From Gammaproteobacteria bacterium (lineage in GTDB: Bacteria > Pseudomonadota > Gammaproteobacteria > S012-40), in the NCBI GenBank assembly GCA_029881255.1, contig JAOUMY010000001.1:992001-1056000 (forward strand): 64,000 nt of DNA. The letters are read 5' to 3'. Below, piece after piece: positions 30,441-39,977 of this stretch (positions are counted from its first letter, which is position 1; the number at the start of each line of letters is the position of its first letter). The translations under genes were made by a program, and so were the position numbers. The notes below the pieces were generated by a model. It was not told the DNA's origin. It ran no database searches and saw only the letters and a program-made list of their open reading frames with translations.

Positions 30441-30959
30441 ATGAGTAATACTGAGATTGGCTCGGAAGACGGGCGCTTGATGAAGTTTCTGGTCACGTCC
30501 GTGGCCTTTTTTATGGTTGGTACAGTTCATGGCGTGTTACAGGTCCAAAAACCTATTCGCGCATGGCTGGATTCCATAGGAAGTCCCTATGGAGGCCCTG
30601 GCCATATGATAGATCCGTTGGCACACGCACATATCAATGTCATAGGCGGTGTAGTGATATTGTTAATGGCTGTGAGCTACTATTTATTGCCAAGAATCAG
30701 CAAGCGGCCATTGTATTCATACCGCCTGGTAGAGCACACCTATTGGTGGACAACCATCGGACTTATCGGGTTCTATTCCACATTGTTATTATTTGGTTAC
30801 TGGGAGGGGAGTTTGTTGCTCGAAGGCAAGACTCAGGAGATGCACGATGTACACTCCATCTACAGACCGGTAATTGCGGTGGTATCGACGGTAATGGGTG
30901 TCGGCTTTTGGATCTGGTTCGCAAATATTTTTATAACGTATCGTCATGTCAGAAAATAG
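30441..30959 (+). CDS. Short heme-copper oxidase subunit I-like membrane protein
   Basis: The 172-residue protein has four predicted membrane segments (about 14-36, 62-85, 97-121 and 139-168). DPLAHAHINVIGGVVILLM and SYYLLPRISKRPLYS resemble helices of cbb3-type CcoN and NorB, including His residues at a position where those bind heme. Full-length subunit I has at least 12 helices, so this is a short relative, not a working oxidase by itself. No frameshifted remainder is visible, and a second gene overlaps its end by 14 bp. It may bind heme or be a remnant; both are inference. Confidence 0.65.
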   Translation: MSNTEIGSEDGRLMKFLVTSVAFFMVGTVHGVLQVQKPIRAWLDSIGSPYGGPGHMIDPLAHAHINVIGGVVILLMAVSYYLLPRISKRPLYSYRLVEHTYWWTTIGLIGFYSTLLLFGYWEGSLLLEGKTQEMHDVHSIYRPVIAVVSTVMGVGFWIWFANIFITYRHVRK

Positions 30960-33595: not shown

Positions 33596-34852
33596 ATGAA
33601 CTTCTCAGAGTTGAAACAAAAATCAGCAGCCGATCTGCTGGAACTTGCCCAGTCCATGAATATCGAGGGAATGTCGCGAGCACGAAAGCAGGACGTCGTT
33701 TTCGCTGTTTTAAAAGCCCACGCTAAAAAGGGCGAGGACATTTATGGTGACGGGGTACTTGAAATTCTTCAGGATGGCTTCGGGTTTTTGCGCTCCAGTG
33801 ACGGATCGTATCTCGCTGGACCTGACGACATCTATGTGTCACCAAGTCAGATTAGACGATTTGGTCTACGTACAGGCGATACGGTCTCGGGCAAGATCCG
33901 ACCTCCAAAAGAAGGGGAGCGTTATTTTGCGCTACTCAAGGTAAATGAAATTAATCATGAGCCCCCCGAAAATGCACGTACAAAAATTCTTTTCGAAAAT
34001 CTCACGCCGCTTTTTGCTAAAGAGCGCCTGCGTATGGGGATCGGTAATGGTAGTACGGAAGATTTGACAGCCCGTATTATCGATATCGTTTCACCAATCG
34101 GTAAAGGTCAACGTGGGTTAATCGTGTCCCCGCCTAAAGCGGGTAAAACGATGATGCTGCAAAACATAGCACATTCGATTTCAACGAATCATCCCGAGTG
34201 TATGCTGATCGTTTTGCTTATCGACGAGCGTCCTGAAGAAGTTACAGAGATGCAGCGTTCTGTTCGCGGTGAAGTGGTTTCCAGTACCTTTGATGAGCCA
34301 GCCAGTCGCCACGTTCAAGTTGCAGAGATGGTTATCGAAAAAGCCAAGCGACTGGTTGAGCATAAAAAAGATGTTGTTATATTGCTGGATTCGATTACGC
34401 GTCTGGCGCGCGCCTACAATACAGTTATTCCGTCTTCGGGCAAGGTATTGACCGGTGGTGTTGACGCCAACGCATTACAGCGTCCAAAGCGTTTCTTTGG
34501 TGCAGCACGTAAGGCAGAGGAAGGCGGTAGTCTTACCATACTGGCAACAGCATTGATAGATACGGGTTCGCGCATGGACGAGGTCATCTTCGAAGAGTTC
34601 AAGGGAACCGGCAATATGGAACTCCACCTGGATAGAAAGATTGCTGAAAAGCGTATTTATCCTGCAATCAATATCAATCGCTCAGGTACGCGCAGAGAGG
34701 AATACTTAACTACTCAGGATGAATTACAAAAAATGTGGATCCTGCGTAAAATACTTCATCCCATGGAAGAGCTTCAGGCAATGGAGTTCCTGCTAGATAA
34801 GTTGAAGGATACCAAAACCAATGACGAGTTCTTCGACTCAATGAAGCGATAA
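33596..34852 (+). CDS. rho: Transcription termination factor Rho
   Basis: The 418-residue hexameric RNA helicase ends Rho-dependent transcripts. The N-terminus [19 protein letters not shown] is typical. The RNA-binding OB domain has [16 protein letters not shown], the Walker A is PPKAGKTMM, and the secondary RNA-site loop has [17 protein letters not shown] 33596 is chosen over the ATG 6 bp upstream by alignment to known Rho N-termini. No clear ribosome-binding site precedes it. Confidence 0.98.
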
Positions 34853-34892
34853 TTCTTGTCGAGCGCAAAACTGGCGCTTGGAATTGAATAGT

Positions 34893-34924
34893 AGGGCGAA
34901 CGCATTGTTCGCCCTTTTTTTTTT
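34893..34924 (+). terminator. Intrinsic terminator after rho
   Basis: A perfect 9-bp stem (AGGGCGAAC / GTTCGCCCT) with a 5-nt loop is followed by a run of T to 34924. It lies 40 bp past the rho stop and just before rsmE. Confidence 0.93.
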
Positions 34925-34939
34925 AGGCACAATGCGCCT

Positions 34940-35677
34940 ATGCGACTATCCCGAATTTATATTGAGCAAACGCTGTCATCTGACGCGACTATTAGCGTCC
35001 AGGGTGACGAATACAACTATATAAAAAATGTACTGCGCCTTGGCGTCGGAGCCGAATTGGTGTTGTTTAATGGTGAAGGTGGAGACTACGCTGCGCAAAT
35101 TGAAAGCGTCTCCAAGCGTAGCGTGGAGATTAAGATTGGGGAGTTTAGTCGTACAGAAAATGAATCGGGTTTGTACATTCATTTAGTTCAGGCGATTACA
35201 AAAGGTGATCGCATGGATTTTAGTATTCAGAAGGCGGTGGAGTTAGGTGTAAAGGAGATTACGCCTGTATTTACTCGCTATAGCGCAGTTTCATTGGATG
35301 ACAAACGGCGCGAAAAGAAGCACGAGCATTGGCGGCGCGTAGTGATATCTGCTTCTGAGCAATGTGGTCGAAGCGTGATTACAAAGGTTCATCCACCTGT
35401 CACTTTGGAGCAGTGGCTACAAAGTTCCTGTAGCAACGCCGTGACCCATATCGTTATGGTGCCACAAGGTCAGAATCGGTTCGGGTTGCTCGAGGCTATT
35501 GCATCGCCTTGCGTTTTGCTAATTGGGCCAGAAGGGGGGTTTAGTGACGAAGAGGTGGAGAAATTCACCAGTCTTGGGTTTTCTGCCGTGTCACTAGGTC
35601 CAAGAATTCTGCGCGCGGAAACCGCAACTATCACCGCAATTAGTATATTACAGAGCCGCTGGGGTGATTTAGGTTAG
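34940..35677 (+). CDS. rsmE: 16S rRNA (uracil1498-N3)-methyltransferase
   Basis: The 245-residue SPOUT-class methyltransferase modifies U1498 of 16S rRNA. An N-terminal PUA-like part (residues 1-70) is followed by the trefoil-knot domain with AITKGDRMDFSIQKAVELG, LLIGPEGGFSDEEV and SLGPRILRAETA, which bind SAM. The start lies 16 bp past the rho terminator, so its promoter may overlap the terminator or it may rely on read-through. Confidence 0.96.
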   Translation: MRLSRIYIEQTLSSDATISVQGDEYNYIKNVLRLGVGAELVLFNGEGGDYAAQIESVSKRSVEIKIGEFSRTENESGLYIHLVQAITKGDRMDFSIQKAVELGVKEITPVFTRYSAVSLDDKRREKKHEHWRRVVISASEQCGRSVITKVHPPVTLEQWLQSSCSNAVTHIVMVPQGQNRFGLLEAIASPCVLLIGPEGGFSDEEVEKFTSLGFSAVSLGPRILRAETATITAISILQSRWGDLG

Positions 35678-35978
35678 ATCGAATCTAAATTTGAATGGTT
35701 TCTTATTACCTCCGCAAGTGCTGGATAAGTTTCCCAGTTTGATACAATTGTAAACATTTCGATTTAGTAAGAGATATTTTTTGAGTTGCAAAACAACCGC
35801 TTGAGTCATTTCCCCTTTAAAATGTAACCTGATTTGTAAATAACTGTAAATTCCCAGGTTTTTATCTTCACTTTGTACATAGAGGTCCGCTACATTTATT
35901 GATACAGAATTACTGAGGAAACAACTCAGAAATGTTGAGTTCATGGATGTTAAACTTTAGAATACGAGGTGAAGCGCG
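35678..35978 (+). other. AT-rich intergenic region upstream of the iscR-like gene
   Basis: The 301 bp are AT-rich and should contain the iscR-like promoter. The minus strand carries a 91-codon frame (35669-35944), with a middle resembling a folded segment (LHFKGEMTQAVVLQLKKYLL), but I recognise no family. It has no strong ribosome site and overlaps the rsmE end. I therefore do not call it a gene, although a small real gene cannot be excluded. Confidence 0.35.
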
Positions 35979-36434
35979 ATGAAAATCCCTACCAAAGGAC
36001 GTTACGCAGTAGCTGCAATGATGGATTTAGCGATGAGTGAGAGCCAAGGCCCTCTGACAATTGCGGACATTGCAGAAAAGCAAAATATTTCACTGTCTTA
36101 TCTCGAGCAATTATTTGCCGATTTAAGGAAAAATGGATTAGTGAAAGGGACTAGGGGGCCTGGTGGTGGATATCGCCTGGCAAAACCCGCGCAATATATT
36201 AGTATTGCGCAAATTATTCTGGCGGTGGACGAAAAGGCCGTTCAAACTAGCCGGGAGAACGAACATTATATGCCTTATGTGTTCTGGGCTAATCTTAGCC
36301 AGCGCATGTATGGGTTTTTAAACAATATTACGCTGGCGGAGTGTATAGAAAATCCTCCAGCAGCCGAAGTCTTCAAAGGAGATTCCGGCGAGCAGCAGTA
36401 TCCACAGGATAACTCTGGTAAGGCGGCAGCCTAA
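35979..36434 (+). CDS. IscR-like Rrf2 regulator lacking the Fe-S cysteines
   Basis: The 151-residue winged-helix Rrf2 protein is close to IscR: MKIPTKGRYAVAAMMDLAM, the helix-turn-helix ISLSYLEQLFADLRKNGLV, and the wing GTRGPGGGYRLAK. IscR binds a 2Fe-2S cluster through three Cys within about 13 residues after the SAVDE-type segment. Here that region reads AVDEKAVQTSRENEHYMPYV and has none; the only Cys is in TLAECIEN further on. It probably cannot carry the usual cluster and may act as a constitutively apo-type regulator. It sits 60 bp before iscU. The ribosome site ACGAGGTGAAGCGCG precedes the ATG. Confidence 0.88.
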   Translation: MKIPTKGRYAVAAMMDLAMSESQGPLTIADIAEKQNISLSYLEQLFADLRKNGLVKGTRGPGGGYRLAKPAQYISIAQIILAVDEKAVQTSRENEHYMPYVFWANLSQRMYGFLNNITLAECIENPPAAEVFKGDSGEQQYPQDNSGKAAA

Positions 36435-36494
36435 TTGTCATCTGCGTGGATAATGTTGTTTTCCTGGTTTTATTAATTAACAAGGAGATCAACC

Positions 36495-36896
36495 ATGGCC
36501 TACAGTGACAAGGTAATTGATCACTATGAAAATCCACGCAACGTTGGCAGTTTTGATAAAGCTGATACCAGTATCGGTACCGGGATGGTCGGAGCTCCTG
36601 CGTGTGGTGATGTAATGCGCCTGCAAATCAGAGTCAACGATGCTGGCGTTATTGAAGACGCACGTTTTAAGACCTACGGTTGTGGCTCAGCGATAGCTTC
36701 CAGCTCATTGCTCACCGAGTGGGTGAAAGGCAAGACTCTGGATGAGGCACAACAGATTAAGAACACACAGATAGCAGAAGAGCTCGCTCTTCCACCTGTT
36801 AAAGTGCATTGTTCAGTATTAGCCGAAGACGCAATCAAGGCTGCAATTGAAGATTTTCGTGCCAAGCAGGGAACGCAAAAAACTGGCACTGATTGA
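36495..36896 (+). CDS. iscU: Fe-S cluster scaffold protein IscU
   Basis: The 133-residue scaffold assembles 2Fe-2S clusters. It keeps the ligands in GAPACGDVMRL (Cys and Asp), KTYGCGSAIASSS and VKVHCSVLAEDAI, and the LPPVK chaperone-recognition motif. It is preceded by AAGGAG and follows the iscR-like gene directly, with no iscS between them. No hscB, hscA or fdx follows; a terminator does. The cysteine desulfurase and chaperones must be encoded elsewhere if the pathway works. Confidence 0.95.
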   Translation: MAYSDKVIDHYENPRNVGSFDKADTSIGTGMVGAPACGDVMRLQIRVNDAGVIEDARFKTYGCGSAIASSSLLTEWVKGKTLDEAQQIKNTQIAEELALPPVKVHCSVLAEDAIKAAIEDFRAKQGTQKTGTD

Positions 36897-36925
36897 TTGC
36901 GAGCGCTTCAACTCTCATTTTTAAG

Positions 36926-36949
36926 ACCCGGGATCTCCCGGGTTTTTTT
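36926..36949 (+). terminator. Intrinsic terminator after iscU
   Basis: A 7-bp stem (ACCCGGG / CCCGGGT) with a 4-nt loop is followed by a T-run. It ends the iscR-like/iscU transcript. Confidence 0.9.
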
Positions 36950-36951
36950 AT

Positions 36952-37827
36952 GTGTCTATGTTTGTAATTTCCGGAATGGACTATGCTTTCTGCTACAACA
37001 TCGAAAACTACACGTGTGTGGAAATGCAATATTCAGGGGAAAGCATCTTATTTCGGGGTAGGGACGCATTCGGAGAACTGGTCGTAACTGAAGGGGCGTT
37101 AGTGAGAACGCTTTACTTTGGAAATGAAAAGCGTCAAAGCGCCATGTTTCTTCAGCACGCGGGCTTGCTTGTGCTTGAATATACCCAGGTGATGATGTTG
37201 TCACTTATTTTTAATCGCCAACCGCATCGAGTTTTTTGTCTTGGCCTGGGTGGTGGATCGATACCTAAATTTTTACTTAGAGCCTGTCATGTTTCGCAAG
37301 TCGATGTGGTCGAGTTGAGACAGGCCGTAATTCAAGTTGCATATCGATTTTTCGATGTGCCGGAAAATAGTTCACGCCTGAACATTGAGTGTGCAGACGG
37401 GGCTAGCTACTTTGATGGCGTTGCTCAACACAAATCATACGACCTTATGTTTATTGATGGCTTTGATCGAGATGGGCCAGTGGATGCGGTGTCCAATATT
37501 CCTTATCTTGCGAAGTGCGCAAGCCACTTATCGGCAAATGGGATACTGTGTATCAATCTCTGGAATCGTCGAAAAGACGATTTTCAACAACGATTAAAAG
37601 AGATTCGAGCTCTCTTCGATGGTGGGGTGTTGCTGTACCAATTGGGTAAACTAAATAGTAATGTTGTTTTATTCTGCTTTCGGAACCGCAGCCAGGCCTT
37701 GCAAATTAAACGTTATGAGCATGCTTCCAGGCAACTGCAAAGAGAATTTGGTATCAACTTTCGAAAGTATTTTTCCCGGCTGTATAAACAGAACGTGCCG
37801 ATGTATCAGCGCCTTATGCGTGCATAA
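36952..37827 (+). CDS. Spermidine synthase-like methyltransferase-fold protein
   Basis: The product (up to 291 residues) has a class I Rossmann fold of the polyamine synthase type: RVFCLGLGGGSIPKFLL, QVDVVELRQAV, and YDLMFIDGFDRDGPVD. It lacks the usual N-terminal catalytic loop of true spermidine synthases, and the family is often annotated only as spermidine synthase-like. The ATG at 36952 abuts the iscU terminator; ATG 37024 gives a start closer to homologues and is more plausible. Its substrate is unknown. Confidence 0.75.
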   Translation: MSMFVISGMDYAFCYNIENYTCVEMQYSGESILFRGRDAFGELVVTEGALVRTLYFGNEKRQSAMFLQHAGLLVLEYTQVMMLSLIFNRQPHRVFCLGLGGGSIPKFLLRACHVSQVDVVELRQAVIQVAYRFFDVPENSSRLNIECADGASYFDGVAQHKSYDLMFIDGFDRDGPVDAVSNIPYLAKCASHLSANGILCINLWNRRKDDFQQRLKEIRALFDGGVLLYQLGKLNSNVVLFCFRNRSQALQIKRYEHASRQLQREFGINFRKYFSRLYKQNVPMYQRLMRA

Positions 37828-37942
37828 TTCTGGAGCATCCGGCATTTAACCGACACTTTCACTTTTATGCGGGCTTATCCGCTATTCTTTCACCGGTTAT
37901 AGGCGATATAATACCCGGCTAGTTAAACTCTGTGTCTTACCT

Positions 37943-38992
37943 ATGGCTGTTCTTTTTAGAAAATCCTTTTGTTTCATTGGCTTGTTTCTGTTTTTGGGTG
38001 TTGCCAAAGCGGACTACCAGCTTTACGGGCAGCTGCATCTGTCATCCGATGCGGTAAGAACCGGTGGTGCCAATGTGTTCACTATATCGAGTAATGCCAC
38101 TCGATTCGGTTTTAAGGGGTCTCAAGTTTTAGGAAGTAGCTCGCTACAAGCTGTATGGAAGATAGAGTCTGAGGTTGATGCCACCGGCGAAGCGGATCGA
38201 CTAAAAGGCAGGAACCGCTACTTAGGAATTGCAAGTGGACTTGGGACTATTGTCGCCGGATATCAGGATTCACCATTCAGAACCTTAGGTAGCAAGGTTG
38301 ATATGCTCCCTGAAACTATCGCGGACTTCAGAAGCATTATGGGCGCGGTTCGCGACCAATTTGACCCTATTACAGTTGATACTTTTAATTTGCGGGCAAA
38401 GCGTTCGGTAATGTATGTCTCCCCGAGAATTGCCGGGCTTCAGGTGCGCTGGATGAGGGCGCTAAGACAGTTTGGGCATTACAAGCTGGATTACAGTTCG
38501 CTTTCATCTGAAGCGATCTGGAGTTACAGCGGAGTATATAAAACAAAGTTTTTCTATCTTGGCGCTGCGCGGGAAACGCACGAGAATATTCTTGATTCGG
38601 CTGTGAATCGAGTCGCTGGCGGGCTCACAATGGATGAGACCGAGATCAATTTTATTTACGAGGTCATGGAGTCGGGCATTGATACTACTCTTAGTCGTGA
38701 GAGCTACGGAGTGAGTTTTCGTCGTCGTATCGAAGATACCGCCATCGTGTTGCAGGCTTTTGCCGCGGAAAACGATTATTGGATAAAAAATTCAGAGGGT
38801 TTTTTGTACGCGGCTTCCGTGCAACAGCGAATGTCTAAAGAGGTGGAACTCTATATTGTTGCAGCGTATGTGGATAACGCAGACGCTGCCAGTTTTCGCC
38901 TAGGTGCTGTTGATCATGGGGAATACTACGCGCCACCCGCGCAGGGTGGAAATGTCTATGGGGTTTCCATGGGAGTAACCTACGTGTTCTAG
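37943..38992 (+). CDS. Outer-membrane porin
   Basis: The 349-residue protein has a signal peptide (about 1-23, ending LGVAKA) followed by a Gram-negative porin beginning DYQLYGQLHLS. Typical features are ATRFGFKGSQVLG, a loop 3-like acidic segment, and a C-terminal strand ending GVTYVF with the terminal Phe recognised by BAM. It resembles general diffusion porins of the Porin_4 type. Selectivity cannot be stated. It converges with the DsrE-like gene, 11 bp apart. Confidence 0.9.
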   Translation: MAVLFRKSFCFIGLFLFLGVAKADYQLYGQLHLSSDAVRTGGANVFTISSNATRFGFKGSQVLGSSSLQAVWKIESEVDATGEADRLKGRNRYLGIASGLGTIVAGYQDSPFRTLGSKVDMLPETIADFRSIMGAVRDQFDPITVDTFNLRAKRSVMYVSPRIAGLQVRWMRALRQFGHYKLDYSSLSSEAIWSYSGVYKTKFFYLGAARETHENILDSAVNRVAGGLTMDETEINFIYEVMESGIDTTLSRESYGVSFRRRIEDTAIVLQAFAAENDYWIKNSEGFLYAASVQQRMSKEVELYIVAAYVDNADAASFRLGAVDHGEYYAPPAQGGNVYGVSMGVTYVF

Positions 38993-39003: not shown

Positions 39004-39486
39004 CTACGGCTTTTCCATTTCCACCAAGGCATACCCCCTACGCTGATATTCCGAGACTTTTTCGGGACCTGCTGGCACTACATCCACATATTCCGGAAAG
39101 TCGCTTTCTTCCTTGTGATACCAGGACGCATGCGTTCCACAAACGTGTACCGGTACATTTTCACTGACCAGGCTTTTGACTCGTTGGTGAGCATCAGGCA
39201 TGCTTTTCTGGTTTTCAGTCAGAAGGCCGAATTGTTCACTGCCATGGCTGACGACGGCAATTTTGATTCCCGGATGTTGTTTGCGTAACTTTTCGCCGTA
39301 TTCCTGGATTTTGGGCAAGGCCCAATTCAACGCCTCTTGCTTGCCCTCTACGATCTCGAATACCACACCTGCCGGAGGATTCTTCGCCTTCAGAATAAAC
39401 CTGATATCATCTTCCATTCCGGCCCATAATGGCGTCGAAGTGATGAGTAATGATAGAAAAATAGCTGGAGCGAAAATTTTTCGCAT
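39004..39486 (-). CDS. Periplasmic DsrE-like protein
   Basis: The 160-residue product from ATG 39486 has AAAGGGGAC upstream and a signal peptide (about 1-21, ending TPLWA). The mature part has a DsrE/DsrF-type fold: VVFEIVEGKQEALNWALPKI, IKIAVVSHGSEQFGLL, and VHVCGTHASWYH with a candidate reactive Cys. Cytoplasmic DsrE relatives carry sulfur, but this one is exported and has one Cys in that segment. The longer frame to 39543 is rejected. It is divergent from the DUF1499 gene. Confidence 0.8.
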   Translation of the reverse strand: MRKIFAPAIFLSLLITSTPLWAGMEDDIRFILKAKNPPAGVVFEIVEGKQEALNWALPKIQEYGEKLRKQHPGIKIAVVSHGSEQFGLLTENQKSMPDAHQRVKSLVSENVPVHVCGTHASWYHKEESDFPEYVDVVPAGPEKVSEYQRRGYALVEMEKP

Positions 39487-39527
39487 GATTGTCCCCTTTG
39501 TGTCTAACAAGTGTGCGTAATGTGAAA

Positions 39528-39977
39528 ATGATACTAATAGCAATTGTCGTTTTTGTTCCCTTGAGCATGTTAACCCCGATTCTACTCAACGGGGTGTCTG
39601 TTTTTGAAGCGCCAGGTCCCATAGACAGGCTAAAAATCTATTGGACTCAAAATGTTGCGGAAACCAGACAAGATCATCGCTTCCCTGAGCTTCGGCTACC
39701 GGTATATGACGTTCCAGCTCAGAATTTGTTTCAAAGGATTGAATCCGTCCTGCACGAGCAGGGATGGTCGATTGCCTCCGTGAATCAAGATGCGTTGACA
39801 GTTTCTGCGGTTGTCATTTCACCTCTATGGGGGTTTAAGGACGATATTCAGGTGCGAGTTACGCCGGTGGATGCACAGCATAGTGTGCTTGTTATACGTT
39901 CGGCATCGAGAATCGGTAGAGGCGATTTTGGGGCAAATCTGGCTCATATTCGACGAGTGATTAAGGCCTTGGGTTAG
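39528..39977 (+). CDS. DUF1499 family protein
   Basis: The 149-residue protein has an N-terminal hydrophobic anchor (MILIAIVVFVPLSMLTPILL). The DUF1499 core has LFQRIESVLHEQGWSIASVN, LWGFKDDIQVRVTP and SRIGRGDFGANLAHIR, which match the family closely. Its function is unknown. The chosen ATG leaves 41 bp to the DsrE-like start; a GTG lies 6 bp upstream. Confidence 0.83.
   Translation: MILIAIVVFVPLSMLTPILLNGVSVFEAPGPIDRLKIYWTQNVAETRQDHRFPELRLPVYDVPAQNLFQRIESVLHEQGWSIASVNQDALTVSAVVISPLWGFKDDIQVRVTPVDAQHSVLVIRSASRIGRGDFGANLAHIRRVIKALG

Follow-up and report, generated by a model that had tools for sequence, protein, structure and literature searches.

The window (the whole 64,000-nucleotide stretch analysed) is part of contig C1 in an assembly (G000) of 4.97 Mb and 99.45% completeness. 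At 35979-36434 on the forward strand it carries an open reading frame with an ATG start and zero internal stops, encoding a 151-residue regulator of the IscR/Rrf2 type, here called IscR2. Sixty base pairs past the iscR2 stop codon begins iscU (36495-36896, forward strand; TIGR01999, 227.7 bits, cut-off 192.4), in which the scaffold residues ACGD, YGCG and VHCS were seen by eye, and the preliminary description's placing of the regulator directly before iscU is therefore upheld. This is the sole full-length IscU gene of the genome; the only other IscU match at E ≤ 1 was 27% identical, with an E-value of 0.07. An intrinsic terminator (10-pair stem with a T tail) follows iscU at 36923-36946 on the forward strand, and a terminator scan of the locus found none between the two genes, which makes it likely that iscR2 and iscU form a two-gene unit. 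An Rfam scan of 34500-38500 gave no match.

IscR2 scored 110.5 bits against the Pfam Rrf2 model (cut-off 30) and 116.9 bits against the Rrf2 superfamily model TIGR00738 (cut-off 73.3). Its 146.1 bits against the curated IscR model TIGR02010 fell short of the cut-off of 207.55, and the other IscR of the same genome scored 215.9. The curated models for CymR (93.7 bits, cut-off 195), NsrR (31.1, cut-off 182) and RirA (43.2, cut-off 193) were also missed. E. coli IscR (PDB 4hf1) was matched by phmmer at 130.8 bits with residues 1-131 aligned, and in the alignment the base-reading residues S40, E43 and Q44 and the minor-groove residue R59 are all present. S40, E43 and Q44 are the base readers of E. 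coli IscR, and R59 is likewise named (PMC9973013). The DNA-binding half is thus IscR-like, as had been proposed. A single-sequence structure prediction reached a mean pLDDT of only 44 and the model was set aside.

The former ligand segment, residues 86-102 (36234-36284, forward strand), had been described as shortened and free of cysteine, and the alignments bear this out. Against 4hf1 there is a 7-residue gap, no Cys in the segment and a Tyr at the position of H107; none of Cys92, Cys98, Cys104 and His107 is found when the protein is aligned with 4hf1 or with the other IscR of the genome. The segment, read through W103, instead carries [YH]-x-P-x3-W (Y97, P99, W103), with P99 and W103 in 15 of 15 family-type rows and Y97 in 14. 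Between families it varies widely, with no common docking motif. The sole Cys of IscR2, Cys122 (codon 36342-36344, forward strand), lies outside the segment at a position that is Leu in cluster-binding IscR; it is retained in 12 of the 15 family rows, and is missing from the iscU-linked copy of one family genome (G007) and from the linked copies of other families. A frameshift concealing the cysteines, raised in the preliminary description, was ruled out: no alternative frame of 36200-36320 yields C-x5-C-x5-C-xx-H, and independent relatives also lack the ligands. It is thus confirmed that the window gene is an intact paralogue of IscR from which all four cluster ligands are missing. Their absence predicts a cluster-free protein, both here and for 42 further ligand-less relatives. 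Since the ligands and the curated score both fail, membership of IscR is not claimed; our claim is that IscR2 may work like a cluster-free IscR.

Two other parts of the window were recorded. A secreted DsrE-like protein is encoded at 39004-39543 on the reverse strand, ∼2.1 kb from iscU (Pfam 23.6 bits, cut-off 22.7); a DsrE look-alike with no Pfam match adjoins the unlinked ligand-less IscR of another locus (L083), beside a rhodanese. At 30441-30959 (forward strand) lies the gene for a 172-residue membrane protein that matches a short stretch of the model for the oxidase COX1 at 41 bits (cut-off 34.8); an overlapping PF20603 gene comes next.

The companion IscR and the isc operons of the family

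Besides the window gene, two Rrf2 genes of the genome score above the Pfam cut-off, making three in all: a gene on contig C4 that by eye we take for NsrR, and a normal IscR on contig C13. The last, the second IscR with normal cysteines that the preliminary description had suggested looking for, has C92, C98, C104 and H107, with the ligand segment CDGKGNCQDGHPCLTH; IscR2 is 52% identical to it over 127 residues. It heads the order IscR, NifS-like desulfurase, iscS, iscA, hscB, hscA, fdx, a layout from which we infer a gammaproteobacterium. The gene iscU is usually found inside the isc operon; this one has none, and no space for one between iscS and iscA. The window gene is not the first gene of an isc operon, but precedes iscU alone. 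We find no support for the earlier suggestion that isc repression would be independent of cluster status, because the isc operon stands on the other contig behind its own full-ligand IscR and only iscU adjoins iscR2. In the isc operons of this family, iscR and iscS are separated by the gene of an additional, NifS-like desulfurase (L004:8065-9198, reverse strand), which is below every curated cut-off of its matches (best 388.8 of 530.75 bits).

The family set comprised 13 genomes (G000-G012). A ligand-less IscR stands directly before iscU, beside rsmE, in eight of them (G000, G001, G002, G004, G006, G007, G008 and G011), and in all eight the isc operon is without iscU. G003 and G010 retain iscU inside the isc operon. 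G005 and G012 gave weak IscU matches only (46 and 44%) and have a normal iscR before nifS-like and iscA-like genes; in G005 a ligand-less IscR follows rsmE without iscU. G009, a genome that is 67% complete, has an isc operon without iscU, and IscU was not found. Additional stand-alone ligand-less copies occur in G001, G005, G006, G007, G008, G010 and G012. Those of G008 are a tandem pair (L063:4739-5842), each ∼66% identical to the window protein and without iscU. The linked copy of G007 (L061:5004-5447, reverse strand), which lacks C122, is much more diverged than the others and had the longest end branch in a first tree.

A candidate type-1-like box before iscR2

Palindromes were sought, with no prior motif and with equal restarts for real and shuffled sequences, in the 200 bp upstream of iscR2 in the eight family genomes. 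One 25-bp palindrome with the half-site ATACYTGAGTAA was found in all eight promoters, scoring 117.9 in four of four runs; 40 of 40 dinucleotide shuffles scored lower (mean 79.5, sd 3.0, maximum 87.2). With leave-one-out training seven of the eight sites were recovered, including that of the window; the G006 site was not. In the window the palindrome reads ATTACTGAGGAAACAACTCAGAAAT and occupies 35909-35933, 70 bp before the iscR2 start. Its length and layout are those of the IscR type-1 box ATASYYGACTRWWWYAGTCRRSTAT, and the half-site matches the one known as site A in the isc promoter of P. aeruginosa (PMC3899308). By pattern, then, iscR2 appears to have a type-1 box in its own promoter. Just past the box, at 35935-35963 (forward strand), is a sigma-70-like promoter, TTGAGT-17-TAGAAT, matching the consensus at 9 of 12 positions; it was graded weak because the scan found four such sites where shuffles gave 2.5.

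A matrix built from the eight sites alone was applied to the isc promoters of the family, and in each of the 13 genomes its best match fell on the TTGAC box, with p ≤ 0.010 in 10 and 0.050-0.070 in the other three. At a threshold of 12 bits, picked after the data were seen, matches were present in 17 of the 20 promoters of linked ligand-less copies (9 of 12 outside the training set) and in 54 of 70 iscR promoters of isc operons, against 4 of 21 promoters of unlinked ligand-less copies. Control upstream regions gave 8 of 314, from overlapping loci that are not fully independent, and the top-scoring controls are upstream of cysE, which itself precedes iscR. The palindrome was not found in five unlinked copies of the family (58.6, shuffle mean 59.6). 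Among pairs from other families, those of f80, f153 and f37 have near-perfect or textbook type-1 boxes; no type-1-like box was found before the two f142 pairs. These f142 genomes (L250, L263) are of 1.0-1.1 Mb and retain the ligand-less iscR-iscU pair despite their small size.

A loose form of the motif has two exact matches in the whole genome, the box at 35909-35933 and one on contig C2 (L278:1501-1525). The latter lies 59 bp before a DsrC/TusE-type gene (L278:1560-1898) whose product, a sulfur relay protein (Pfam DsrC, 120.4 bits), has its C-terminal Cys replaced and ends in GLPESRRKGGY. Four such genes, that of the window genome included, were compared: in three the matrix scores above 11 at -59 to -76, and the G006 gene has no such site. 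When at most one mismatch was allowed, a regulon search picked out 15 places and a control pattern 13, as expected by chance. The unequal half-sites of the isc box had suggested heterodimer binding; this was dropped, since other families are similarly asymmetric and the -35 element may set the asymmetry.

Ligand loss and linkage to iscU across the class

The class sample held 369 genomes, 157 of them with IscU at E ≤ 1e-40. Among 114 IscU genes whose surroundings were read (family genomes included), 86 follow iscS, 22 directly follow iscR and six do neither; two genomes (G048, G252) have a second IscU match each. The loci supplied held 155 IscR-like genes. Those directly before iscU (24, from 11 families) comprise 20 ligand-less, two partial and two full-ligand proteins, whereas all 78 that precede iscS or nifS (73) or iscA (5), from 50 families, have full ligands. 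Fisher's test of linkage against ligand loss gave p = 2e-20, a value that ignores kinship among rows sharing descent. IscRs with other neighbours (21 ligand-less, 27 full) are a biased sample, as many were retrieved with a profile of ligand-less copies, and five contig-end rows (three full, two ligand-less) were excluded from the comparison.

Ligand-less linked copies occur in seven families (f1, f37, f80, f101, f128, f142 and f153), and all 20 have open frames. Partial ligands were seen in f141 and f151, and linked IscRs with all ligands (genomes G260 and G251) in f137 and in f127, a family with an IscU of only 54% identity. The isc operon is without iscU also in f101 (G112) and f153 (G369). 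Because the same pairing recurs in several other families, it looks like a real regulatory arrangement. In the open-licence literature searched, including PMC8593673 and PMC9973013, we found no description of a ligand-less IscR beside iscU.

On a tree of 114 columns, with 73 of 126 inner branches open, ligand loss took nine changes and linkage nine, and the arrangement may have one old origin. A speE-like gene lies downstream of the pairs in f1 and f128. By eye, we take the neighbours in f80 and f153 to be RibD-like and NUDIX-like genes, and those of f142, f151 and the unlinked f2 and f44 copies to be DUF1249- or phosphoglucomutase-like; DUF1249 in f142 is a weak Pfam match under the cut-off. 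These neighbourhoods hint at an old second IscR locus that iscU joined in some lineages.

S40, E43, Q44 and R59 are present in all 43 ligand-less copies. The dN/dS of iscR2 orthologues was 0.16 for G004-G011 and 0.033 for G164-G274, which belong to a different family and form the closest pair, dS being saturated in the remaining three pairs. Between G004 and G011, iscR2 is 68% identical and the normal IscR 81%. Given the invariant residues and low dN/dS, IscR2 looks maintained as a DNA-binding protein rather than debris.

Possible roles of IscR2 and comparison with known systems

A single E. coli protein serves as holo repressor and as apo regulator, and disentangling these functions is difficult. 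According to PMC3899308 and PMC12594620, [2Fe-2S]-IscR alone binds type-1 boxes and represses isc, and apo-IscR regulates type-2 promoters. It is E43 that prevents E. coli apo-IscR from binding type-1 sites (PMC3899308).

The lost ligands, the conserved DNA readers, the selection, the box, the normal IscR elsewhere, the isc operon without iscU and the recurrence in other families together argue for a working IscR paralogue that lacks the [2Fe-2S] site and forms a unit with the relocated sole iscU. In the reading we favour, tentatively and with a little less than even confidence, holo-IscR controls this unit and IscR2 is a hard-wired cluster-free IscR. Canonical [2Fe-2S]-IscR would repress iscR2-iscU through the type-1-like box, jointly with the isc operon, and when clusters are scarce IscR2 and IscU would rise together. 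IscR2 would then act as a permanently cluster-free, apo-type IscR, so that the Fe-S signal would be carried by its amount and not by its cluster occupancy. A wider proposal, possible but doubtful, is that Fe-S sensing is split in two genes in a recurring module, mostly with the sole iscU: the normal IscR would be the cluster-sensing repressor, and the ligand-less IscR, made with IscU once holo-IscR leaves the type-1 box, the cluster-free output.

Some observations count against the favoured reading. The SUF system is the classical target of apo-IscR; no SufB/D was found in the window genome, while the identical search was positive in 14 of 14 control genomes, and the E. coli type-2 consensus had no exact match in the genome against three for a reversed-pattern control. 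Neither search yielded a target for an apo-type regulator in this genome. The f142 pairs without a box and the full-ligand linked IscRs of G260 and G251 also weigh against it.

The main rival, in our judgement rather unlikely, is that IscR2 without a cluster binds the type-1-like box itself, represses its own unit and fixes the level of IscU regardless of Fe-S status. The box directly before iscR2 in all eight family promoters, the unchanged base-reading residues and the scarcity of boxes at unlinked ligand-less copies (4 of 21) are what such cluster-independent autorepression would give, but E43, which bars E. coli apo-IscR from type-1 sites (PMC3899308), is kept in 43 of 43 copies, and the same box precedes the isc operons of normal IscR (54 of 70). 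The resemblance of IscR2 to the normal IscR would also suit a heterodimer of the two that weakens or tunes repression by the latter, and the related boxes at both promoters mean that both may be made together; we regard this as distinctly unlikely.

The tight pairing with iscU in several families fits an IscR2 that senses IscU by contact, in the manner of CymR with CysK, and adjusts iscU accordingly; we hold this quite improbable, and the wide divergence of the former ligand segment, with no docking motif shared among families, speaks against it. A redox or electrophile switch working through the single thiol of Cys122 has a precedent in SifR, a one-Cys Rrf2 sensor (PMC9218516), and would suit the retention of C122 in 12 of 15 family copies; we hold it highly improbable, and the lack of C122 in the linked copy of G007 and in those of other families speaks against it. 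That iscR2 is a decaying duplicate merely travelling with iscU would explain why it changes faster than the normal IscR (68 against 81% identity), but this was already unlikely and is scarcely credible beside the low dN/dS values, the invariant DNA-reading residues and the open frames of 20 of 20 linked copies.

Should the favoured reading hold, a natural pair of one cluster-capable IscR and one that is not would allow each role to be tested singly. That iscU can stand in a regulated unit of its own also bears on the balance of the scaffold with IscS and the chaperones.

Among known regulators, the one-Cys repressors SifR and YwnA (PMC9218516) are, like IscR2, Rrf2 proteins free of clusters with a single Cys; unlike them, IscR2 does not keep its Cys122 outside the family, and no search matched the two proteins. 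CymR, which is among the PDB and NCBIfam matches, is likewise an Rrf2 regulator without a cluster, but IscR2 reaches only 93.7 of the 195 bits of its cut-off, and its gene lies with iscU instead of with cysteine genes. E. coli apo-IscR, as in ligand mutants such as C92A, resembles IscR2 in its expected cluster-free state and in keeping E43; the state of IscR2 would be natural and permanent, and type-2 targets were not found in the window genome. With IscR of E. coli and P. aeruginosa, IscR2 shares the Rrf2 family, S40, E43, Q44 and R59, an isc gene as neighbour and a type-1-like box in front, but all of its ligands are gone, the segment that held them is seven residues shorter, and it is a second copy besides a normal IscR, standing with iscU alone.
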